This document shows positions 20,453 to 32,295 of a stretch of 64,000 nt of DNA, in pieces. This DNA is from Nakamurella lactea DSM 19367. Lineage in GTDB: Bacteria; Actinomycetota; Actinomycetes; Mycobacteriales; Nakamurellaceae. The notes beneath the pieces were generated by a model. That model searched no databases. It was not told where the DNA came from and saw only the letters and a program-made list of their open reading frames with translations. Each line of letters opens with the position of its first letter. The stretch's first letter is position 1. The DNA lies in contig NZ_KE384549.1 in NCBI RefSeq assembly GCF_000426645.1, positions 471,740 through 535,739 of the forward strand, given 5' to 3'. The translations under genes were made by a program, and so were the position numbers.

Positions 20453-23400
20453 TCAGCGCAGGCCGAAGGCCTTGATGATTTCCTGGTGCACGGTGTTGCC
20501 GGCGTTGTCGGCGGCGGACGCCCGGATCGACACGGAGGTGGCCCCGGACTTCGGGTACCTGACCGTCGCCGACCAGTGGTTGCCGGAGCGGTGCAGCGAT
20601 GCCCGCTGCCAGCTGGCGCCGCCGTCGTAGGACAGCTCCAGCGTCGCGGACCGGACCTTGCTACCGATCCCGACCGCGTCCGGCTGTTGCCAGGTCGAGA
20701 GCCCGATGGTGGCCCGGCTGCCGGCCTTGGCGTAGCCGCCCAGGTCCACAGCGACGTCATAATTCAGCTGCAGCAGGGGCAACAGAACCTTGACGGTCGG
20801 GTCGCTCGGGGTCTGCGAATCGAACGTCCACTCGCTGTGGGTGCTTGACGACCACGCAGACAGCTCGGCCGGACGGGTGGTGTCCTGCTCGAACCGGTAG
20901 GTGGCGGGCCCGTCGACGTGCGGTACTTCGTCCTGGATGGCCTGGAACGGGGATTCCTTGATCAGCTCCCCGTTCTGGAACAGCCGGGAGACCACCGTGT
21001 CTCCGCCGGCACCCGTCACTCCCGGGCCGCCGGCCGTCGGGACGTTGACCTGCATGACGTCGCCGCCCCGGAACGGTCCCCAGTAACCCGGCCCGAGCAC
21101 CGGCCGGGTGATCGGTGCGAACCAGTCGAGCGAGGTGCGCTCACGCGGCCGGTAGTCGACCTGATCGAAGCGCTGCTCCCAGCCGTTCAGGTCCACAACG
21201 TCCTGGTACCAGGCGTTCCCGGGTTCGGTGGACACGTAGTCGACACGGTTGCGACCCAGTCCCTGTGGGGTGAAGAAGCCCAGGCACGGCGGCCACTGGT
21301 AGCTGCGGCAGTCGTAGCGGTTCTCGAAGGCCAGGCCGTCGGTCTTGCCGATGAATCGTTCGGAGACGGTGGCCAGCTCGCGGGCCGCCGGCTTCCAGGA
21401 CAGGTTCGCCGGGATCCCGTTCGGGTAGCTCTTGCTCAGGTCGTACAGGTACGGACTGAACTCGATGGCGGTGCCCCGCAAGGTGATCCGCTTCCGCTGC
21501 GCCGCCTTGACCAGCCTGGCTCCCTGGGCAGCGGTCAGCGAGACCACCGGCAGGTCGGTGAAGGTGTAGTCCACGAACTTGCCGGGCCGATCATTGACCA
21601 CGACCAGTAGGGCGGCCCCGGCGTGCTCCGCCGCGGCGACGGCATCGCTGGTACTGACCGCGTCGCTGCGGGTGATCACCGCCGCGGCGCCCTTGGCCCA
21701 GACGCCGACATAGTCGTCGGGAGTCCCGCTGCCGGCCACCGCCACCGGCAGGTTCAACTTGCCGTCCAGGTGGCGGGAACCGGTGTAGTACAACGGATCC
21801 AACTTCCCGACGCCGCCGGTCGCCGAGACCTGCAGCGGCGGAGCGGTGAGGCGGTAGCGGACGGCGAAGTCGTACTGGCCGCCGGCCACCGCCCCGGTCG
21901 GGGCGGCGAACAGATCATCGACCTCCGGCCCGGGCTGGTAGGTCGAGGCGTACGTCCGGTACTCGGAGTCCAGCCCGGAGTCGTGGAAGAACTGCAGCCG
22001 CCGACCCGTTGCCACCGTTCCGGCCTTCGGGGTCGCCACCGAGATCTTCGTGGCCTTGCGGGCATCGAGCACCAGATCGGTGTCGGCGCCGATCACCAGG
22101 TGCGGGTTGCCGAGCAGGGCGATTCCGGCGGAATCAGGTCCGTCGGTGCCGGCGACGGGCAACCAGCTGGTGACGTTGTAGATGCCCGGCTGGACCCGTT
22201 GAACCTGAGCCTTGCCGGTGGCCGGGTCGACCGGAACCAGGGTGGCGCTCCAGTCGCCGAACCGATAGAGCTCGACGAAACCGCCGGCGGGCTTGCCGTT
22301 CCGTCCGACTGCGGACAGGTCGAGGTCGTACCGCTCGTCCTCCTTGGCCAGCGCGACCGCGGTGTGCGCCGCGACCTTGCCGGTGGCGTCGGTCGCGTTG
22401 ATCTCGCCGGTGAACTGACCGGTTCCGCTGGCGTCGTCGGCATCGGCCGTGACGCTGACTTCTGCGGTGCCGTTGGCCGGGACCGTGACCGTGTCGGCCG
22501 ACAGCGTGAACAGACCGGTGAGGGCCGCGCCGTCCGGGCCGGCGGCGTCCGCTGACAGCGACAGCGTGACCGGGGCGTCGCCGGTGTTGGTGTAGGTGAC
22601 GGTCTTCGTCACCGGATCGTCGCCGTCGTGCGGCCAGGTGTAGTACCCGAAGAAGTCCGAGCCGGTGGCCCGCAGGTTGTCGATGGCATCAGGGATCCAC
22701 AGCCGGCCGCTGCCCACCTGGTAGGGAGTGGTGCCGGCTAGTTCGGTGCTGCCGGACATCAGCGCGTCCTTGACCTGCGAGGCGGTCCAGTCCGGGTGGG
22801 CCTGCAGCACAATCGCGGCGGCGCCGGCGACGTGCGGGGTGGCCATCGAGGTGCCGCTCATGGTGGTGTACATGCCCTCGCCGTAGGAGTCCTTCGACCG
22901 CGCTGCGGTGATGTCGACGCCGGGCGCCGACAGGTCGGGCTTCATCCCGCTGTCGCCGCCGCGCGGTCCCATGCTGGAGAAGTCGGCCCGGACGTCGTTG
23001 TCGTCGACGGCGCCGATGGTCAGCGCCTCGTCGGCGGTCCCCGGGCTGCTGACGGTGCCCTCGCCGTAGGCGTTTCCGGCCGCGATCACGAACAGCGCGC
23101 CGGTCTGTTCGCTGATCCGGTCGACCGCCTGGGCCATCGGGTCGTCCTTGGTGGTCATCGTCGGATCGCCGAGGCTCATCGAGACCACCTTGGCCTTGGA
23201 CGCGGCCCACTCCATGCCGGCGATGATCCAGGAGTCCTGGCCGTAGCCGTCATCGCCGAGCACCTTGCCGACCAACAGCTTCGCGCCGGGGGCGACTCCC
23301 TTGTACAGCCCGTCGGAGGCGGCGCCGGTGCCGGCGATGGTGGAGGCGACGTGGGTGCCGTGGCCGACGACGTCGGTCATCGACTCGCCGGGGACGAACG

Positions 23401-24244
23401 ACTGGGTGTCGGCAATCTGGCCCGCCAGGTCGGGATGCGAGGTGTCGATCCCGGTGTCGAGCACGGCGACCGTCGTTCCGGTGCCGGTGTAGCCCGCCGC
23501 CCAGGCCTGCGGCCCTCCCACCTGCGGAACGCTGACGTCCAGGGTCGACTTCGCCTTGCCGTCGAGCCAGATCTTGCCGATGTTGTCGGCGAGAGCGGTC
23601 GGCGCCGCCTTCGGGTCGGGGCTGGGAGCGACAGACGACCAGAATGCCGCCATGTCGGCGTTCTTCGCCTGCAGCGCGGAGGCGTTGATGCTGGGGAGGT
23701 CTCGCTTCTTGGTGGCGCCGGCCGGCACCCGCTTCACGCTGCGCGCCGCCGCTGAGCCGCGGTAACTCGCGATCACCGGAAGTGCGCCGGTCTGGTCGTC
23801 GGTGTACCCGTTGCTCACCAATTTGGTGACGTTGAACAGCTCGCGATCCAGCTTGTTCGCGGCCAGCAGCGGCCGCGCGGAATCGGGGATGACGTACAGG
23901 CTCTTACCGATGTTCTGGGTCTGCACGCCGCCGGACCCGGCCGATTGCACGGTCGCGGCGGTTCGGCCGTCCGGCGTCGTGCTGACCGAGACGACGTCGC
24001 CGGTGATCAGGGTGACCGAGTGCGTGGTCCCGGTGTCGGCGGCGGTGGCCGCGGCCGGCGTGACGGTCGTCGGGGTGTCGGGTGCGGCTTTCGCGGCGCC
24101 GGCCGGGCTGCCGGCCGAGGTGGCCCGGGCTGCGCCGGTCCGATCCGTGAGCGCCGGAACGGCGTTGGCCATCGTCGGGGCGATGGTCGCGGCCAGCGCC
24201 ACCACCGTCCCGATCGTCAGTCCGCGGAGCGATCTCGAGGTCAT
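20453..24244 (-). CDS. Secreted subtilisin-like S8 serine protease with PA insert
   Basis: 1,263 residues. Sec signal peptide (1 to about 28, ending TMANA), an I9-like propeptide region, then the S8 domain. Catalytic residues are D263 (AVLDTGIDTSHPDL), H295 (GHGTHVAS), oxyanion N391 (AAGNAYG) and S466 (SGTSMATPHVAG). Beta-sandwich and protease-associated segments (VVVNDRPG, LPVVSLTAAQGARLV) follow. AGGAGGT lies 8 nt before the ATG. It is an exported degradative protease. It is divergent from a TrmB/LuxR-like regulator, which probably controls it through the 143-bp shared gap. Confidence 0.93.
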   Translation of the reverse strand: MTSRSLRGLTIGTVVALAATIAPTMANAVPALTDRTGAARATSAGSPAGAAKAAPDTPTTVTPAAATAADTGTTHSVTLITGDVVSVSTTPDGRTAATVQSAGSGGVQTQNIGKSLYVIPDSARPLLAANKLDRELFNVTKLVSNGYTDDQTGALPVIASYRGSAAARSVKRVPAGATKKRDLPSINASALQAKNADMAAFWSSVAPSPDPKAAPTALADNIGKIWLDGKAKSTLDVSVPQVGGPQAWAAGYTGTGTTVAVLDTGIDTSHPDLAGQIADTQSFVPGESMTDVVGHGTHVASTIAGTGAASDGLYKGVAPGAKLLVGKVLGDDGYGQDSWIIAGMEWAASKAKVVSMSLGDPTMTTKDDPMAQAVDRISEQTGALFVIAAGNAYGEGTVSSPGTADEALTIGAVDDNDVRADFSSMGPRGGDSGMKPDLSAPGVDITAARSKDSYGEGMYTTMSGTSMATPHVAGAAAIVLQAHPDWTASQVKDALMSGSTELAGTTPYQVGSGRLWIPDAIDNLRATGSDFFGYYTWPHDGDDPVTKTVTYTNTGDAPVTLSLSADAAGPDGAALTGLFTLSADTVTVPANGTAEVSVTADADDASGTGQFTGEINATDATGKVAAHTAVALAKEDERYDLDLSAVGRNGKPAGGFVELYRFGDWSATLVPVDPATGKAQVQRVQPGIYNVTSWLPVAGTDGPDSAGIALLGNPHLVIGADTDLVLDARKATKISVATPKAGTVATGRRLQFFHDSGLDSEYRTYASTYQPGPEVDDLFAAPTGAVAGGQYDFAVRYRLTAPPLQVSATGGVGKLDPLYYTGSRHLDGKLNLPVAVAGSGTPDDYVGVWAKGAAAVITRSDAVSTSDAVAAAEHAGAALLVVVNDRPGKFVDYTFTDLPVVSLTAAQGARLVKAAQRKRITLRGTAIEFSPYLYDLSKSYPNGIPANLSWKPAARELATVSERFIGKTDGLAFENRYDCRSYQWPPCLGFFTPQGLGRNRVDYVSTEPGNAWYQDVVDLNGWEQRFDQVDYRPRERTSLDWFAPITRPVLGPGYWGPFRGGDVMQVNVPTAGGPGVTGAGGDTVVSRLFQNGELIKESPFQAIQDEVPHVDGPATYRFEQDTTRPAELSAWSSSTHSEWTFDSQTPSDPTVKVLLPLLQLNYDVAVDLGGYAKAGSRATIGLSTWQQPDAVGIGSKVRSATLELSYDGGASWQRASLHRSGNHWSATVRYPKSGATSVSIRASAADNAGNTVHQEIIKAFGLR

Positions 24245-24387
24245 CGTGAAGTACCTCCTGCTGGGGTGGTTGACCAGCAGATGATGGCAGCGCAAACCAG
24301 CCAGCAACAAGAATCCTCCGTTGGCGGGTTTACGACCTGGCACATCCTCGCCATAGACTCGGTCCACCCTGCTGACGGAGGAATGCC

Positions 24388-25396: not shown

Positions 25397-26101
25397 TCAG
25401 CCGGGATTGAGCATCCGCAGTGATCCGACAGTCAACCCGGAGCGGCCGCAGATGTCCAGGATTCCGGGTAGCGCGGCCGCCGTGGTACGCCAGGACCCGG
25501 GTGTGCCGTAGCTGTCGGAATCGTGCAGCAGGACCACTTCGCCGTCGCGCAGGCCGTTGGTCGACCGGTGGATGATGCTCTCCGGGGTGGCCGCCGTCGA
25601 CCAGTCGCGAGCCCACCTGTTCCACCAGATCGGCTGCAGGTCAAGCGATCTCGCGGCCAGCAAAGCCGACCCTGTTGCCACGCCGTAGGGAGGACGGAAC
25701 CAGCGCGGCGTCACCTGGCAGATGTCGCTGATCAACTCGACCGCCTGGCTCAGCCGGCGACGGGTGGAAACCGGACCCTGCCGGCAGAGGACAGCGTGGT
25801 TCCAGCCGTGCACTGCTACCTCGTGTCCGTCGTCGACGATCCGTCGGCCGATGTCGGGGAAGCGACGTAGTTGCTCGGCGATCAGGAAGAACGTTGCGGT
25901 CACCCGGTATTCGGCAAGAACGTCCAGAACTGCTGCGGTTCCCTGCGGGTGCGGTCCGTCATCGAAAGTCAGCCCGATCCCGGATCCCGACCTCTGGCCG
26001 GCCGGCGGGAGCCGGGCGGAGATCCCGGGTATCCCGGTCACCGCCGGTCCGAAGTGGGCGATCGCGGCTCCCGTGGCGACCGTCGTCATTGCCCGGATCA
26101 T
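25397..26101 (-). CDS. Polysaccharide deacetylase (NodB fold)
   Basis: 234 residues. NodB motifs are complete: GLTFDDGPH (metal Asp), HEVAVHGWNH (HxxxH), RPPYG, and DGEVVLLHDS. A short hydrophobic N-terminus (TTVATGAAIAHFG) may be a weak signal anchor. The enzyme would remove N-acetyl groups from peptidoglycan or another envelope glycan. ATG 26101 overlaps the stop of the upstream glycosyltransferase (ATGA), so the two genes are coupled. A longer in-frame start at 26173 would overlap that gene by 75 nt and is less likely. Confidence 0.88.
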   Translation of the reverse strand: MIRAMTTVATGAAIAHFGPAVTGIPGISARLPPAGQRSGSGIGLTFDDGPHPQGTAAVLDVLAEYRVTATFFLIAEQLRRFPDIGRRIVDDGHEVAVHGWNHAVLCRQGPVSTRRRLSQAVELISDICQVTPRWFRPPYGVATGSALLAARSLDLQPIWWNRWARDWSTAATPESIIHRSTNGLRDGEVVLLHDSDSYGTPGSWRTTAAALPGILDICGRSGLTVGSLRMLNPG

Positions 26102-27279
26102 GCGACGCCGTCCCGCTGGGAAGGTGAACACTGGGAAGGCCGACGCCGGGATGGCCAACGCTGGGAAGGCCAAGGCCGCGGCGGCGAATGACGGGCCATC
26201 GCCAGGATCTCGTCGATCGGATCGGCGACCGGTAGGCGGGAGTGGGAGTCGGTACGGGCCAACGTGATCGCCGCAGCCAGTTCGCCGGCAGTGCGCGGCC
26301 AGCCGGCCTGCCCGGTGCGCTCACAGAACGAGGCGTTGGCCGCGCCCTGACCCGGAAGGGGCAGATAGTGCACGACCGGCAGACCCGAGGCGACGCATTC
26401 GGCCAGCGTCAGGCCGCCCGAATTCAGCACCGCGACATCACAGCACCGCATCAAGGCGGCCATGTCTTCCACCCAACCGAGGGTGACGATGCCGGGAGTA
26501 CCGGCCAGCCGCTTGAGTAGCCGATCGTTCCGACCGCAGACCACTACCGGCGTCATTCCGCAGGTGGCCAGTAGATCGATGGCTGCCCGCTCGACGTCGC
26601 CGACACCCCAGGAACCCGAGCACAACAGCGCCAACGGTCCGGCCGGAAGGCCGAGGGCCAACCGGCTCCGCGGTCGATCGCCCGGTCCGGCCGACACCCG
26701 GAACTCGGGTCGGATCGCGGGTGCCACGTCTGTTGCGCGCGCGGAGGTGTGGCAGCCCACCTGATCGGCGCCACCGTCCCAGGTGGTCAAGTACAGGTCG
26801 GTGCCCTCGGCGATCCACAGCCGATGAACGGCCGGATCTGTCACGTAGACGACCGCGGGCACAGTCGGCCCTTCGCGACGACCGGCGGCCAGCACATGGC
26901 CGGCGAGCGGGAAGGTGCCGACCACCACGTCGGCCGGCCGAATCACCGCGTCGCCGGACAGGATCCGGTTCACCCGGCGCCACACGGTGGCCACAAGTTG
27001 GCGGGCGATCCAAGGCAGGGCGTCGGCCTGCTGCAGGTTCGTGAACAGCGCACCCCAACTGCCCGGAACCCAGTTCAGCTGGGCGTGGAACAGCGATCGG
27101 AAGGCCCGCCCGATCCGCAGCGGGGCAACCTCGACAAGGTCAAGGATCTCTGCGGCGTGGCCGGCATCGGTCAGCCGGCGGGCCAACTCATTGGCCGGGC
27201 CGAGATGGCCCGCACCGATGCTGGCGGTGAGGATCACCACTCGAAGTGCGGGAGCGGACTGCGGTGTCTGGGTGATCAT
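26098..27279 (-). CDS. Glycosyltransferase of the MurG/MGDG-synthase type (GT28-like)
   Basis: 393 residues. N-terminal VVILTASIGAGHLGPANELA and a C-terminal nucleotide-sugar site (GWVEDMAALMRCCDVAVLNS, GGLTLAECVASGLPVV) match the GT28 fold. It probably glycosylates a lipid or envelope carrier. GGGAGA lies 5 nt before the ATG. The last 25 residues come from a 15-bp repeat and look dispensable. It is an operon with the deacetylase and faces the blaI gene across a repeated-box promoter region. Confidence 0.85.
   Translation of the reverse strand: MITQTPQSAPALRVVILTASIGAGHLGPANELARRLTDAGHAAEILDLVEVAPLRIGRAFRSLFHAQLNWVPGSWGALFTNLQQADALPWIARQLVATVWRRVNRILSGDAVIRPADVVVGTFPLAGHVLAAGRREGPTVPAVVYVTDPAVHRLWIAEGTDLYLTTWDGGADQVGCHTSARATDVAPAIRPEFRVSAGPGDRPRSRLALGLPAGPLALLCSGSWGVGDVERAAIDLLATCGMTPVVVCGRNDRLLKRLAGTPGIVTLGWVEDMAALMRCCDVAVLNSGGLTLAECVASGLPVVHYLPLPGQGAANASFCERTGQAGWPRTAGELAAAITLARTDSHSRLPVADPIDEILAMARHSPPRPWPSQRWPSRRRPSQCSPSQRDGVA
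26116..26175. repeat. Four tandem 15-bp units at the glycosyltransferase 3' end
   Basis: Units begin at 26116, 26131, 26146 and 26161, with the core CTGGGAAGG (third copy CCGGGATGG). As 15 is a multiple of 3 they encode a repeating Pro-Ser-Gln-Arg-like tail in the minus-strand protein. Confidence 0.75.
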
Positions 27280-27322
27280 GAGTCTCCCGCTGCGGACGTG
27301 TCACACTGGATAACGACTCGAC

Positions 27323-27384
27323 ACGTAGTACTACGTCACCCCTAGTACTACGATGGTATTAGTACTACATTCGCGATAGTAGCA
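27323..27384. promoter_or_regulatory. Four regularly spaced TAGTACTA boxes (probable BlaI operators)
   Basis: TAGTACTA occurs at 27326, 27343 and 27360, with a degenerate TAGTAGCA at 27377, all exactly 17 bp apart. The first lies in the 14-bp palindrome ACGTAGTACTACGT (27323-27336). They occupy the gap between the divergent glycosyltransferase and blaI genes. BlaI/MecI repressors bind TAC/GTA dyads of this kind, so joint repression of both transcripts is expected. Confidence 0.75.
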
Positions 27385-27393
27385 AGGAGTTCG

Positions 27394-27807
27394 ATGAGCG
27401 AGCGGCGCGCACCCGGACCGCTGGAAACCGCGGTGTTGGCGGCGGTCACGGCGGCCGACGAGCCGGTGGCAGTGGCGGACGTGCAGGCCCGGCTACCTGG
27501 CAGTCCTGCCTACACAACGGTGATGACGACCTTGTCCCGGCTGGCCGCCAAGGGCGCACTCACCCAGATTCGCGAGGGTCGGGCCTTCCGCTACGCGCTG
27601 GCCGCACCGCCGGAGGACGTGGACGACGCGGTGACGGCGCGGCGGATGCGACGGTTGCTGTCCGACGGTTCCGACCGGGCAGGCGTGCTGGCCAGATTCG
27701 TCGCCGAGCTGGATCCGGATGAGGAGCGGCTGCTCTCGGAGCTGTTGGAGCGCTCGGAGGTCGACAGTGGTGGCGCGGACGGAACCTCGGGAACGGCGAC
27801 GGCCTGA
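27394..27807 (+). CDS. blaI: BlaI/MecI/CopY-family repressor
   Basis: 137 residues. The winged helix GPLETAVLAAVTAADEPVAV, YTTVMTTLSRLAAKGALTQI and GRAFRYALAAP is followed by a C-terminal dimerisation region (RFVAELDPDEERLLSELLE), as in BlaI/MecI. Such repressors are inactivated by proteolysis through a partner M56 metalloprotease, encoded 4 bp downstream here. AAGGAG lies 4 nt before the ATG. No beta-lactamase gene is nearby; the targets may be envelope genes. Confidence 0.9.
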   Translation: MSERRAPGPLETAVLAAVTAADEPVAVADVQARLPGSPAYTTVMTTLSRLAAKGALTQIREGRAFRYALAAPPEDVDDAVTARRMRRLLSDGSDRAGVLARFVAELDPDEERLLSELLERSEVDSGGADGTSGTATA

Positions 27808-27810
27808 GCC

Positions 27811-28803
27811 ATGAGCTTCCCGCTGATCGCCCTGCTGCTGGCCCTGTTGGCCTGCTTCGTCGTCGGCCGGTCGGCCAACCCACTGATGCGGAAAGTGCCT
27901 CCGGCCCAGGCCGTTCCACTGGTGACCGTTGCCGCGCTGGCTGTCTCACTGGCCGCCGGCGTTGCGCTCACGGCCATCGCGATCGCGGTGATCGCCGGGC
28001 TGTCGTCGGTGGCGGCTGACGGGCGTTGGTCCGCGGCCGAGCTTCGGACCGAGGTGCCCATCCCGTGGTGGCTCGGTGCGCTGGCAGCGGCTGTCGTGCT
28101 GGCGTTGCTGGCCAGGGCCGCCGTCCGGACAGCGCGGATCGTCGTCGCTCTGGTACGAGCAGATCGGTTGTGCCGCATCATGAGGGCCGGCGGCGGTCCG
28201 ATCGTGATGGTGGACGATGACTCTGCCGATGCGTTCACCGTCGCGGGGCTGCGCGGCTGCGTGGTGATCAGCCGACGGCTGTTCGCCGGGTTGCGCGCCG
28301 ACGAGCGACGCGTACTGACCGCCCACGAGCTGTCCCACCTGACCCGTCGACACCACCTGTTCGTGCACCTGGCGGACATCGCATCGGCGGCAAATCCGTT
28401 GCTGACGACCGTTTCCGGCGCGGTTCGGTTCGGGGTCGAGCGGTGGGCCGACGAGGATGCTGCTGTCGGGATCGGTGATCGGCGGCGGACCGGCCGGGCG
28501 CTGGCCAGGGTGGCACTGCTGCGCTCGTCGCTGGCCGCCGCGCGACCGACGCTACCGTCCAGTTCGATGCCGAACGGTTCATCGCGGTCCGCCGGCATTC
28601 CGGCACTCGGTGTCGCCACCCAGCAGGTGATGCCGCGGGTGCAGGCCCTGCTGAATCCGGCTCCGCGTCGCCGTACCGTCCGGCTGTTGGCTGCCGGCGC
28701 TGTCGCGTTCGGGGTGTTGATCGTCGGCATGGCCAGTCTGGATCACATCCACGAAGCGATCGAAACCGCGACGCCGTACGTCCACCACGTGATCCACCGC
28801 TGA
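27811..28803 (+). CDS. M56-family (BlaR1-like) membrane metalloprotease
   Basis: 330 residues. Hydrophobic helices at about 3-20, 33-60 and 80-100 precede the zinc motif LTAHELSHLTRRHH (HExxH). A single C-terminal helix (about 290-310) follows. There is no penicillin-binding sensor domain, so it is an M56 peptidase of the kind paired with BlaI in actinobacteria rather than true BlaR1. Its likely job is to cleave BlaI on an envelope signal. Only 3 nt separate it from blaI. Confidence 0.88.
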   Translation: MSFPLIALLLALLACFVVGRSANPLMRKVPPAQAVPLVTVAALAVSLAAGVALTAIAIAVIAGLSSVAADGRWSAAELRTEVPIPWWLGALAAAVVLALLARAAVRTARIVVALVRADRLCRIMRAGGGPIVMVDDDSADAFTVAGLRGCVVISRRLFAGLRADERRVLTAHELSHLTRRHHLFVHLADIASAANPLLTTVSGAVRFGVERWADEDAAVGIGDRRRTGRALARVALLRSSLAAARPTLPSSSMPNGSSRSAGIPALGVATQQVMPRVQALLNPAPRRRTVRLLAAGAVAFGVLIVGMASLDHIHEAIETATPYVHHVIHR

Positions 28804-28859
28804 TCGGTCCGCGGGATCGCCAGTCTGCCGACGGCGCCACCGTCGCCTAGCCTGACCTC

Positions 28860-29711
28860 GTGCACACCTGGCTGCCGGCACTGCTGGCCATCGGCGCCGC
28901 GACCCTGATTGCGCTCGGCACCGTGCTGCGGCATCGGGCCTCGACCGATGGGCACACCGCGGGCGGATTGTGGTGGTTGGGAGCGCTGGTTGCGTTCGCC
29001 GGATTTGCGTTGCAGGTGGCGGCACTGAGCACCGGTTCGCTGCTGGTGGTGCAACCGCTGATCGTGTTGTCGGTGCTGTTCGCACTGCCGTTCGACCAGT
29101 GGATCAACCATCAGATTCCTACTGCGCGGCAATGGCTCTGGGGAATATTGTTGGCGCTGGGCGTCGGCGTATTCGTCAGTTTCACCGATACCGAGCCGGC
29201 CAGAATGGGCCGCCAGTTGTGGGTGCTGGTGCTGGTCGTCTGCGTGGTGCTCGCCGCGTTGCTGGCCATGGTGGTCTACGCGGAACGGTCGGCCCGGGCG
29301 CCGAAGGCGTTGCTCTACGGCGTCGTTTCCGGCGCGCTGTTCGGCATCGCCGCGGTGCTGGTCAATACGGTCGGCCACCAACTGGATCAGCCGCTGCTGG
29401 CCCTGCAACGTCCGCCGCTGTACCTGTTCCTGCTGGTGGCCGGCGCCGCTGTGCTCTGCCAGCAGCGATCGTTCATCGCGGGGAACCTGCAGGCGTCGTT
29501 CCCGGCGATGACGGTTTCCGAGCCGATCGTCTCGATGGCCCTGGCGATGGCGCTGGTCGGCGACAAGCTCAACCGGCACAGCTGGGCGACCGCGGTGAGT
29601 CTGTGCGGCCTGGCGTTGATGGTCGTCGGGGTGATCCGGCTGGCCCGACTGACGGCGGCCAGGGAGGACGAGCAGCGGGTGCGGATGTCCCCGTCCGGCG
29701 TCACGGGCTGA
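28860..29711 (+). CDS. DMT-superfamily membrane transporter
   Basis: 283 residues with about nine transmembrane helices in the EamA/DMT pattern (GAATLIALGTVLRHRAS, LWWLGALVAFAGFALQVAAL, SLLVVQPLIVLSVLFALP, FPAMTVSEPIVSMALAMALV). Substrate unknown. The GTG start is 6 nt after TAGCCT without a ribosome site, so it is probably leaderless and independent of the blaI operon. Confidence 0.82.
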   Translation: MHTWLPALLAIGAATLIALGTVLRHRASTDGHTAGGLWWLGALVAFAGFALQVAALSTGSLLVVQPLIVLSVLFALPFDQWINHQIPTARQWLWGILLALGVGVFVSFTDTEPARMGRQLWVLVLVVCVVLAALLAMVVYAERSARAPKALLYGVVSGALFGIAAVLVNTVGHQLDQPLLALQRPPLYLFLLVAGAAVLCQQRSFIAGNLQASFPAMTVSEPIVSMALAMALVGDKLNRHSWATAVSLCGLALMVVGVIRLARLTAAREDEQRVRMSPSGVTG

Positions 29712-29716
29712 CCTAT

Positions 29717-29737
29717 CTACTACTTGTCAAGTAGTAG
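29717..29737. promoter_or_regulatory. CTACTACTT-N3-AAGTAGTAG operator
   Basis: Perfect 9-bp arms with a 3-bp centre, 18 bp before the deacetylase-like start and just upstream of TAGCGT (29744-29749). It resembles the blaI boxes (CTAC/GTAG) and would place this gene under BlaI control. Confidence 0.65.
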
Positions 29738-29755
29738 TTCAGGTAGCGTGGAGCC

Positions 29756-30691
29756 ATGCAGAGCTTTTCGCGGCGGGCGCTGATCGTGTCCGGTCTCGCC
29801 GCCGCCGCGTCCGGCGTCGTCGGTTGCACCACCGGACTCCGGTCGGGATCGCCGCCGCCGGTGCCGCCGTCAGCCGGACCAGTGGGGATGACGGCGAAGA
29901 GCTCGACGCCGACGTCGTCGGGCGCGGCCGGAACCAGACCGGCGAGTGTGGCCACCCCGAGCCCTTCGGGAGCCGATTCGTCCTCCAGTACTGCGTCTTC
30001 GTCGGGGTCCCGGTCGGCCTCGGATCCTTCTCGGGCGTCTGCGGGAGCACGCTCGTCTGCCGCGACCACCACGGCGGTCAGGCCGCTCGGTTCGGCCACC
30101 CAGGTCGCCACCGGACCGACCGGAAGCTCAGCGGTTGCACTCACGTTCCATGGCCAGGGCGACATCGCGATCGCCCGGCAGGTCCTCAAGATCGTCGCCG
30201 CGAAGAAGGCGCGCATCACCGTGATGGTGGTCGGGACATGGCTCAACCAGTACCCGGGGGTCGCCAGAGAGATCCTGGCCGGCGGTCATGAGTTGGGCAA
30301 TCACACCTGGTCGCACACGAACTTCCAGGCGCTGCCGGAGGACCAGATGCTGCAAGAGGTCGTCAAGTGCCGGGACGCGTTGCTGCGGCACGCCGGGACT
30401 CCCGGCGACTACTTCCGCCCGTCGAAGACCCAGTACGCCACGGACCAGACCCTGCGGGTCGCCGGCCGGGCCGGCTATCGGACCGTGCTGTCGTACGACG
30501 TCGACTCGCTGGACTTCACCGAACCCGGCGGGCCCGCAGTGCGGGCGAATGTTCGGCCGGCGAAAGCCGGCTCGATCGTCAGCATGCATCTGGGCTATCG
30601 CAGCACCGTCGAGGCGCTTCCGGGCATCCTGGACGACCTTGCTGCTCGCGGACTGCGGGCCGTCACCGCAGGCACCCTGCTGGGTTCCTGA
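29756..30691 (+). CDS. NodB-fold lipoprotein with altered metal site
   Basis: 311 residues. The N-terminal RRALIVSGLAAAA leads to lipobox VVGC, followed by a 90-residue Ser/Ala/Thr/Pro linker and a NodB domain (about 120-305). The metal motif TFDDG reads TFHGQGD here, and RPPYG reads RPSKTQYA, while HTWSH and ISMHLG-type elements remain. Activity may be lost or changed. The leaderless start lies 6 nt after TAGCGT and the inverted repeat at 29717-29737 suggests BlaI-type control. It is anchored outside the membrane. Confidence 0.82.
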   Translation: MQSFSRRALIVSGLAAAASGVVGCTTGLRSGSPPPVPPSAGPVGMTAKSSTPTSSGAAGTRPASVATPSPSGADSSSSTASSSGSRSASDPSRASAGARSSAATTTAVRPLGSATQVATGPTGSSAVALTFHGQGDIAIARQVLKIVAAKKARITVMVVGTWLNQYPGVAREILAGGHELGNHTWSHTNFQALPEDQMLQEVVKCRDALLRHAGTPGDYFRPSKTQYATDQTLRVAGRAGYRTVLSYDVDSLDFTEPGGPAVRANVRPAKAGSIVSMHLGYRSTVEALPGILDDLAARGLRAVTAGTLLGS

Positions 30692-30721: not shown

Positions 30722-32062
30722 TCAACGGGTGATTCCGGTGTGCCCCAGGCTGTATCGGCCAGGGATCGGCATCAGGGCCATGCCGTGCGGACCGTTTCCG
30801 ACGGGGATCTTCGCCAGTAGTCTGCCGTCTCTGGTGGACAGGACGTACACGACGTTGTCGTAGCGACCGGACACCCATAGCTGGCTGCCGTCCGCGCTCA
30901 CATTGCCCATGTCGGGGCTGCCGCCGCCGGGAATGCGCCACTTTGTCTCGACCGCACCGGTGATCGAGTTGAGCACGCTGATGCTGCCCTCCAGACGGTT
31001 GGTGACGAACAGTCGTCGGGAATCGCGACTCAGGTACAGGCCGTGTGCGCCGTGTCCGGTGGGGATGAACTTCAGCACCTTGGTGGCCGCACCGTTAAGC
31101 ACCCAGAGCCCGTTGGCGTCCGAGTCGGCGATGTAATAGGCATGACCGTCGGGTGCCAACTTGATGTCCTGCGGACCCATCATGGTGTGTCGCACCGGCA
31201 TGTCGACCAGCCGTAACACCTTGTGGCTCAGCACATCGACCACGGCCACCCGACCGGCGAACTCGCAGGTGAAGACGGCGGTGCGGCCGTCGACGCTGAA
31301 ATCGGCGTGATCGACCCCGGCGCAGCCGGGGACCCGGGTGGTGTCGTGCCGGCGCCAGGTCTTCGGGTCGTACCAGACCAGTTGCTTGTTCTCCTCGGCG
31401 ACGGAGATGGCGTACTTCCCGTCCGGGGTGAAGTACATGTTGTAGGGATCGATGACCGGAATCGTCCGCCCGCAGGTGCCGGTGGCCGGGTTGATCTCCA
31501 GGATCTTGTTGCCCCGGTCGCTGGTCGCGTACAGCATGCGCAGGTTGTACGAGGGCACCACGTGCTGAAGCTCGCTGCCGACAGGACACTTGCGGACCAC
31601 CCGGTGGCTGCGCTGGTCGATCACCCACACGTCGCCGGACTTGTTGTGCGGCACGTAGGCGTAGGTGGGATCCCGCTTGACGTTGGGAGACAACATGTTC
31701 GCGCCGGCGTCCGCATAGATGTCCTTCGGGTCGGGCACCGCGGGCATCCCGGCCAAGGGGTGGTGGTGGCCGGCGATCGGGTCGGATCCGTCCGCATCTG
31801 ATGGACTCGTCGGAGTCGTACCCGACGGCATCGCACCCGACGGCATCGCACCGTCTGGCATTTCACTTGCGGGCATCGAGCCCGGCGGCAACGAGCCCGG
31901 TGTTGATGGGTGCTCCGCCCTGGTAGCGACAGCGGACGGTGGTGTTGACGGATGGTGATCGGGTGTCGTCGGCCGGGCGACGGTACAGCCGGCGAGAACG
32001 GCGATGAGCACCAGAGTGAGTGTCGCGAGTAGTCGGACGGAGCGAGGCACTGCTACCCCCAT
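30722..32062 (-). CDS. YncE-like (YVTN) beta-propeller lipoprotein
   Basis: 446 residues. Signal peptide with lipobox VLAGC (Cys near 27), a low-complexity linker with MPSGAMPSG repeats and GHHHPLAGMP, then a seven-bladed propeller of YVTN type (DVWVIDQRSHRVVRK, GRVAVVDVLSHKVLRLVDMP, GSISVLNSITGAVETKW, NVVYVLSTRDGRLLAKI). Surface-exposed; may bind a metal or polymer, but function is unknown. ATG 32062 preferred, since a possible -10 (TAGACT, 32125-32120) places the transcript start inside the alternative GTG 32119. It converges with the deacetylase-like gene. Confidence 0.82.
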   Translation of the reverse strand: MGVAVPRSVRLLATLTLVLIAVLAGCTVARPTTPDHHPSTPPSAVATRAEHPSTPGSLPPGSMPASEMPDGAMPSGAMPSGTTPTSPSDADGSDPIAGHHHPLAGMPAVPDPKDIYADAGANMLSPNVKRDPTYAYVPHNKSGDVWVIDQRSHRVVRKCPVGSELQHVVPSYNLRMLYATSDRGNKILEINPATGTCGRTIPVIDPYNMYFTPDGKYAISVAEENKQLVWYDPKTWRRHDTTRVPGCAGVDHADFSVDGRTAVFTCEFAGRVAVVDVLSHKVLRLVDMPVRHTMMGPQDIKLAPDGHAYYIADSDANGLWVLNGAATKVLKFIPTGHGAHGLYLSRDSRRLFVTNRLEGSISVLNSITGAVETKWRIPGGGSPDMGNVSADGSQLWVSGRYDNVVYVLSTRDGRLLAKIPVGNGPHGMALMPIPGRYSLGHTGITR

Positions 32063-32122
32063 CGGTCGGTAGCGGGACCGGTAGGCGGACTGGCCGGCCT
32101 TCGGTACGAGTACGACCACAGT

Positions 32123-32140
32123 CTACTATCGAATTTGTAG
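32123..32140. promoter_or_regulatory. Weak CTAC-N10-GTAG dyad upstream of the propeller gene
   Basis: CTAC (32123-32126) and GTAG (32137-32140), overlapping the presumed -10 of the minus-strand propeller gene. It resembles the boxes at 27323-27384 and 29717-29737 but is imperfect. Confidence 0.35.
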
Positions 32141-32295
32141 TTGATGAGGTCTTTGTTCTTCTTGGCGTTCCGCTGCCTGCTGGTCCACGGTGGGTGCCTC
32201 GACTGATCCGCGCTCGGGCGGCCCTGGTAACCCGAGCGACTCAGGCCGATGAGAAGGCTGCCCGGCCGCAGTCAACAGGTCCGAGGAGGCAGGAA

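Follow-up and report, generated by a model that had tools for sequence, protein, structure and literature searches.

A predicted compound BlaI operator of overlapping TACTA-N9-TAGTA dyads between divergent genes of Nakamurella lactea

BlaI-type repressors are widespread in Actinobacteria, and to our knowledge the targets of only a few of them are known. In Nakamurella lactea, equally spaced boxes occupy positions 27323-27384 of the window (the whole stretch of 64,000 nucleotides that was analysed), between a blaI gene and a divergent glycosyltransferase gene, which raises the question of what the repressor would read there, the boxes themselves or a pattern that runs from one box to the next.

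Boxes, dyads and genes at the blaI locus

Three exact copies of TAGTACTA, each a perfect palindrome, were read directly at 27326..27333, 27343..27350 and 27360..27367, and a fourth box, TAGTAGCA at 27377..27384, has kept only the left half TAGTA. The steps are 17, 17 and 17 bp, and thus the positions, the 17-bp period and the degenerate fourth box given in the first-pass annotation agree with the sequence. A repeat search returned three 22-nt copies at spacings of 17 and 17, and no other exact TAGTACTA occurs in the 64-kb window. For a genome of this size (5.82 Mb in 27 contigs) at the base composition of the window (69.3% GC), about 9 single TAGTACTA boxes, 1.4e-5 N9 pairs and 2e-11 N9 triples are expected, so the box array is far above random expectation; the TAGTACTA-N9-TAGTACTA pair has no second occurrence in the genome, and about 0.2 TACTA-N9-TAGTA dyads are expected at the same size and composition. 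That the array arose by chance or as a tandem repeat from replication slippage, without function, is hardly credible, since the likeness of the 22-nt units to the first is no higher than 68 and 73% and comes mostly from the half-sites, and the dyad recurs at other promoters, even if no other genome in the sets searched has this array.

Judged by comparison of the sites, the conserved unit is the 19-bp dyad TACTA-N9-TAGTA spanning box to box and not the TAGTACTA box that the first-pass annotation had taken as the unit, because 11 of the 13 single N9 sites, from four genomes, are without TAGTACTA and yet have TACTA-N9-TAGTA. Three predicted BlaI dyads with exact N9 follow each other: dyad 1 (TACTACGTCACCCCTAGTA, 27329..27347), dyad 2 (TACTACGATGGTATTAGTA, 27346..27364), which has a TA in common with dyads 1 and 3, and dyad 3 (TACTACATTCGCGATAGTA, 27363..27381), the nearest to blaI. 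As each dyad overlaps its neighbour by these 2 bp, the pitch is 19 - 2 = 17 bp. The consensus is roughly TACTAY-N7-RTAGTA, with dyads 1 and 2 of the window lacking the right-hand R. The earlier reading, in which each palindrome is a dimer site and four of them at 17 bp make an ordered dimer array, could appeal to the perfect symmetry of each box and to the three exact copies at equal steps, but it is improbable in view of the single sites above, of the lack of any exact box pair in the 16 congeners and of the pitch in arrays elsewhere, which shifts with the half-site gap.

Dyad 3 ends at most 4 bp from AGGAG (27385-27389), which directly follows box 4 and is separated by 4 nt from the ATG of blaI at 27394. 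On the other side lies a degenerate fourth dyad in register (AACGACTCGACACGTAGTA, 27312..27330), which has 2 mismatches and a matching TCGTT at equal offset in L134 and L137, two of the other promoters compared. Dyad 1 and this degenerate dyad extend into a conserved element, TCGTTATCCAGTGTGACA (27299..27316, minus strand), which is equally far from the outer box in three of the five promoters compared, namely those of the window, L134 and L137 (shortened in L137), and not in L136 and L130. The element may be part of the core promoter for the divergent glycosyltransferase operon. A sigma-70 scan of 27200-27450 gave a single weak minus-strand match, which overlaps the glycosyltransferase start and was not used; an Rfam search of 26800-30200 gave no match and a tRNA search of the whole window found none.

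The blaI gene (27394..27807, plus strand) encodes a BlaI/MecI-family repressor of 137 aa, in which 4 residues are inserted after the wing, and belongs to the Pfam family Penicillinase_R (PF03965, 65.9 bits against a cut-off of 22.6, E 5e-18). It is followed by genes for a metalloprotease of the M48/M56 type (27811..28803, plus strand, 330 aa) and for a DMT family transporter (28860..29711, plus strand; NF038012, 149.3 bits), the latter probably the third gene of the blaI operon, judging from the spacing. The protease, predicted by eye from its sequence to lie in the membrane, matches PF01435 over the cut-off (30.2 bits) and PF05569 (M56) under it (23.1 bits, cut-off 31), and has the zinc metalloprotease domain with HExxH of BlaR1/MecR1, here as HELSH. 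Only protease families match its 330 residues at E 0.001, and no C-terminal penicillin-binding sensor domain was found among them. Divergently are located the glycosyltransferase gene (26098..27279, minus strand), whose product resembles diglucosyl diacylglycerol synthase and MurG (PF13692 over the cut-off; NF010135 under it, E 5e-29), and a polysaccharide deacetylase gene (25397..26173, minus strand; PF01522, 107.7 bits), in whose ORF the glycosyltransferase gene ends. The profile scan of the immediate neighbours showed no beta-lactamase and no PBP. Moreover, a single predicted BlaI dyad with N9 (TACTACTTGTCAAGTAGTA, 29718..29736) lies 19 bp before a second polysaccharide deacetylase gene (29756..30691, plus strand; PF01522, 79.2 bits), which is a predicted target. 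A candidate weak dyad with 1 mismatch (32124..32142), 4 bp 5' of a YNCE-like ORF (30722-32119, minus strand), may be a chance match, since 1-mismatch matches in this genome are not above the control (8 against 6 for the reversed pattern). Dyads with 1 mismatch were not added to the regulon; the scan for them gave only two new sites, this one and one within a coding ORF (L148).

Distribution of the dyad and pitch of the arrays

Among 17 Nakamurella genomes including N. lactea, 5 carry the BlaI orthologue (picked by eye from the PF03965 matches and their sequences) and 12 are without it, one of these being 88% complete. A scan for TACTA-N(0-30)-TAGTA, with full half-sites demanded, gave 60 matches in total, and N9 made up 18 of 30 spacings where this BlaI is encoded (five genomes) versus 1 of 30 where it is not (twelve genomes; Fisher p 2.6e-6, the matches being not fully independent). 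The other spacings served as control because the reversed pattern is built from commoner strings (20-72 matches per genome, against 0-11 for the pattern). In the genus, half-sites at N9 are therefore found nearly only in genomes with this BlaI, with the one exception of G009, where the match lies at a different PF03965 blaI gene. Furthermore, 12 of the 18 N9 dyads are away from any blaI start. The recurrent 30-bp N20 match TACTACCTG...GACTAGTA in several congeners resembles 23S rRNA and is presumably not an operator. Clusters of N7 dyads were seen at G012:C13:180255-222273 and G014:C8:7568-7609, both in congeners without the BlaI of the window, and the region of the G012 cluster also holds other PF03965 genes of that genome (L005, L019).

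At the orthologous blaI genes, TACTAC-N8-TAGTA, that is an N9 dyad of the same kind as dyad 3, is present just 5' of the start in three of the four other genomes (L024, L025 and L027). In N. endophytica (L028, L140) the orthologue is present and the 7 kb examined contained no N9 dyad, whether exact or with 1 mismatch. Absence of the array from relatives would have spoken against the first-pass annotation, and the outcome was divided: the N9 dyad recurs at blaI as given above, whereas 0 of 16 congeners have two exact TAGTACTA boxes within 30 bp of each other. In a phylum sample such pairs occurred in 4 other genomes of 396 (N4, N4, N17 and N25), none at N9. Since the same half-sites and spacing stand before blaI orthologues and also at further promoters, the proposal that the adjacent BlaI uses these sites as operators, from a position where both divergent transcripts would be affected, is very probably right as a prediction. 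A different regulator, whose sites would merely adjoin blaI, is very improbable given that the N9 dyads co-occur with this BlaI in the genus and stand at its gene in four of the five genomes.

The 17-bp step had been put forward as the property of an ordered array of BlaI dimers. When 394 genomes of the class were scanned for TACTA-N(4-12)-TAGTACTA-N(4-12)-TAGTA, three had matches, namely N. lactea, G427 and G615. In N. lactea a second 17-bp array lies at C5:224415-224450 (L130 3416-3451), before PAP2 and DedA/UptA-like genes. The array of G427 (L149) has N8,N8 and pitch 16, and is located about 0.9 kb downstream of a PF03965 gene in the order PF03965 gene, M56-type gene, array and then methyltransferase gene. 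That of G615 (L151) has N7,N7 and pitch 15, directly beside a PF03965 gene, with the gene for cytochrome bd subunit I on the side opposite blaI (divergent pair at L151 1035-2890); L151 carries a further TAGTACTA box besides the abutting N7 dyads. These two arrays from other Actinomycetes thus share with N. lactea the abutting TAGTACTA half-sites near a PF03965 gene, and differ in the gap (N8 or N7) and in the next genes. For abutting half-sites a pitch of N+8 is simple arithmetic, but the equality of the gaps is not given in advance, and the two gaps, allowed to vary from 4 to 12 independently, were equal in all 5 array matches. Hence 17 bp is what abutting N9 dyads give and not a general BlaI array step, and helical phasing was dropped as its cause, as the pitch tracks the half-site gap. 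In a survey that displayed the upstream regions of 62 of the 80 named loci, Jiangella-type blaI loci (L043, L044, L046, L047, L060 and L061) had box arrays of their own with about 19-bp pitch by eye, and blaI there is divergent to a gene resembling cydA by eye (a 485-aa ORF in L044).

The BlaI protein and half-site spacing

Among named records, the BlaI of N. lactea is closest to those of N. endophytica (72%) and N. aerolata (64%), and its sequence matches in the PDB were Rv1846c and MecI. In the AlphaFold2 monomer (mean pLDDT 90.8, pTM 0.74) a winged helix is followed by a C-terminal helical dimerisation part, and the best Foldseek matches were again Rv1846c and MecI (TM 0.44-0.54, rmsd 7.5-10, whole chain); the low whole-chain TM with the high rmsd indicates that the domain orientation differs from that in Rv1846c and MecI. 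In this confident model the 4-residue insertion is located where the long helix 73-91 starts. It is common to the Nakamurella orthologues and absent from the N6, N7, N8 and N10 rows of an alignment of 41 out of 107 BlaI-family genes. Two N9 rows, L022 and L063, are also without the insertion, so its tie to the N9 spacing is only suggestive; together with L028, which has the insertion and no site, they rule it out as the sole cause of N9.

The 107 genes (80 named and 27 from Nakamurella, L025/L035 and L028/L034 being duplicate genes) had upstream sites of strict spacing N6 in 7, N7 in 9, N9 in 7 and N10 in 4 cases, and N4, N8 and N13 in 1 each, with some loci counted twice, and with relaxed half-sites (T[AT]CTA/TAG[AT]A, label suffix r) N7 was the commonest, at 24 loci. 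A single further BlaI-family gene was found in the N. lactea genome, and its site is of the N7 type (TTCTA/TAGAA). On a tree of 52 of the 107 genes the spacing labels, which were assigned after viewing the sites, cluster, with 16 changes against 32.2 when shuffled and 0 of 200 shuffles as low. N9 takes 4 changes, at least 3 of them forced by well-supported branches, and therefore N9 is not one unbroken clade. In addition, in four Actinomadura-type genomes (4 of 12, among the matches listed) N6, N7 and N9 accounted for 13, 20 and 3 of 51 matches, with the reversed control at 42-92 and the pattern at 2-17; all three N9 matches were in G774, and at least one N9 dyad was also among the matches listed for a fifth such genome, G773. 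We know of no insertion-bearing BlaI in these at least two Actinomadura-type genomes with N9 dyads.

The spacing itself could be read differently. BlaI might recognise the inner TAC of TACTAC (TAC-N10-GTA) and so keep the 11-bp half-site distance of N6 sites, the 14-bp distance then being only apparent. TACTAC stands on the left of all three window dyads and of those in L024, L025 and L027, L025 also has a perfect N6 dyad, and in 15 of 19 N9 sites at least one side has the inner TAC or GTA. We nevertheless regard this as rather unlikely, since the other 4 of the 19, which like all of them were found by searches for full TACTA and TAGTA, have it on neither side and still keep the outer half-sites at N9. 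Taking the N9 distance as real, we tentatively propose, with somewhat less than even confidence in the whole, that BlaI lineages read a spacing code, with TACTA-type half-sites at N6, N7, N9 or N10 according to lineage; that the Nakamurella lineage gained both the 4 residues inserted between the wing and the dimerisation helix and a spacing about 3 bp wider than that of its Actinomadura-type relatives; that abutting dyads are compound operators whose pitch is set by the spacing; and that the repressor, no longer tied to beta-lactam sensing, in Nakamurella controls a scattered regulon for undecaprenyl-phosphate recycling and the envelope. The linker insertion would then be a testable protein-DNA correspondence, and a pitch that tracks the dyad spacing would make such arrays readable.

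The predicted switch and its regulon

Taken together, we consider it probable that the three overlapping TACTA-N9-TAGTA dyads form a compound operator for the adjacent BlaI, by which BlaI represses both divergent transcripts until the protease relieves the repression, and that the same dyad marks a scattered envelope regulon. BlaI dimers on the array would block the promoter of the blaI-M56-DMT transcript, and that of the glycosyltransferase-deacetylase transcript on the other side; a single array could shut both sides because dyad 3 lies near AGGAG while dyad 1 and the degenerate dyad reach the putative divergent core promoter. The number of dimers bound is another matter: half-sites of neighbouring dyads start only 3 bp apart, so that adjacent dyads may compete, and the ordered array of bound dimers proposed earlier does not follow. 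Alternate occupancy (dyads 1 and 3, or dyad 2) or tight packing would be expected. BlaR1 and MecR1 are the basis for inferring release of a repressor by a protease, and by analogy with them the membrane protease may inactivate BlaI under envelope stress. Unlike BlaR1/MecR1, it has no match to a penicillin-sensing family, and its lack of a penicillin-binding domain makes envelope or lipid-carrier stress the more likely inducer. We thus predict an envelope-maintenance switch. The BlaI family is known and the operator geometry is a new variant; among the matches listed from open-licence literature, none concerned this geometry or BlaI control of undecaprenyl recycling.

According to an excerpt of PMC5341023, the staphylococcal and Macrococcus MecI/BlaI operators have the consensus [A/G]NATTACA[A/T]NTGTA[A/G][T/G]NT. 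So far as this excerpt goes, the locus of N. lactea is like these in the BlaI/MecI-family repressor, in the inverted TAC/GTA half-sites near the blaI start and in the one operator for divergent promoters, and unlike them in its wider half-sites, with TACTA and TAGTA 14 bp apart. The TACANNTGTA core was rejected as operator, because the window does not contain it exactly and a search around 27323-27384 with 1 mismatch allowed did not find it either. Both sequence and fold place M. tuberculosis BlaI (Rv1846c, PDB 2g9w), also an actinobacterial BlaI, nearest among solved structures; the targets named for it in the available part of PMC12565901 are ftsQ and Rv1303, unlike the envelope targets predicted here. 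CopY/CopR repressors are of the same superfamily, and the extract of PMC7253601 gives their operator as RNYKACANNTGTMRNY, often two per promoter and mostly 24-39 bp apart, with no cooperativity reported for pneumococcal CopY, whereas the N. lactea dyads overlap. The same extract states that the 10-base CopY core alone does not predict binding, a warning that applies equally to the dyads of N. lactea, for which binding is a prediction.

The dyad is rare enough to be detected by pattern only, which makes a regulon prediction readily available. The 18 N9 dyads of the five genomes represent 14 promoter loci, 12 of which have envelope, lipid-carrier or DMT genes, as a raw count, and this agreement of target families points to undecaprenyl-phosphate and envelope upkeep as the role of the predicted regulon. 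By locus, where one locus may count in several families, there are 3 for BacA/UppP (one as second gene), 4 for DedA/VTT, 1 for PAP2, 2 for polysaccharide deacetylase (one as second gene), 3 for glycosyltransferase, 2 for phosphodiesterase and 2 for DMT besides the blaI operon; the names are given by resemblance, as the UptA and undecaprenyl-diphosphatase NCBIfam models scored below their cut-offs. Two of the 14 loci (L132 2963 and L137 4914) have no assigned target. We placed the ORF starts near the dyads ourselves, and those of the L130 PAP2, L131 DMT and L135 GT2 genes were taken further in because the longest ORF would start within the dyad itself. Such a regulon would link the BlaI-protease pair to the lipid-carrier cycle, which is attacked by bacitracin-type drugs. 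Finally, large S8 subtilase genes were observed near both 17-bp arrays of N. lactea, at 20453-24367 in the window and at L130 84-3146.
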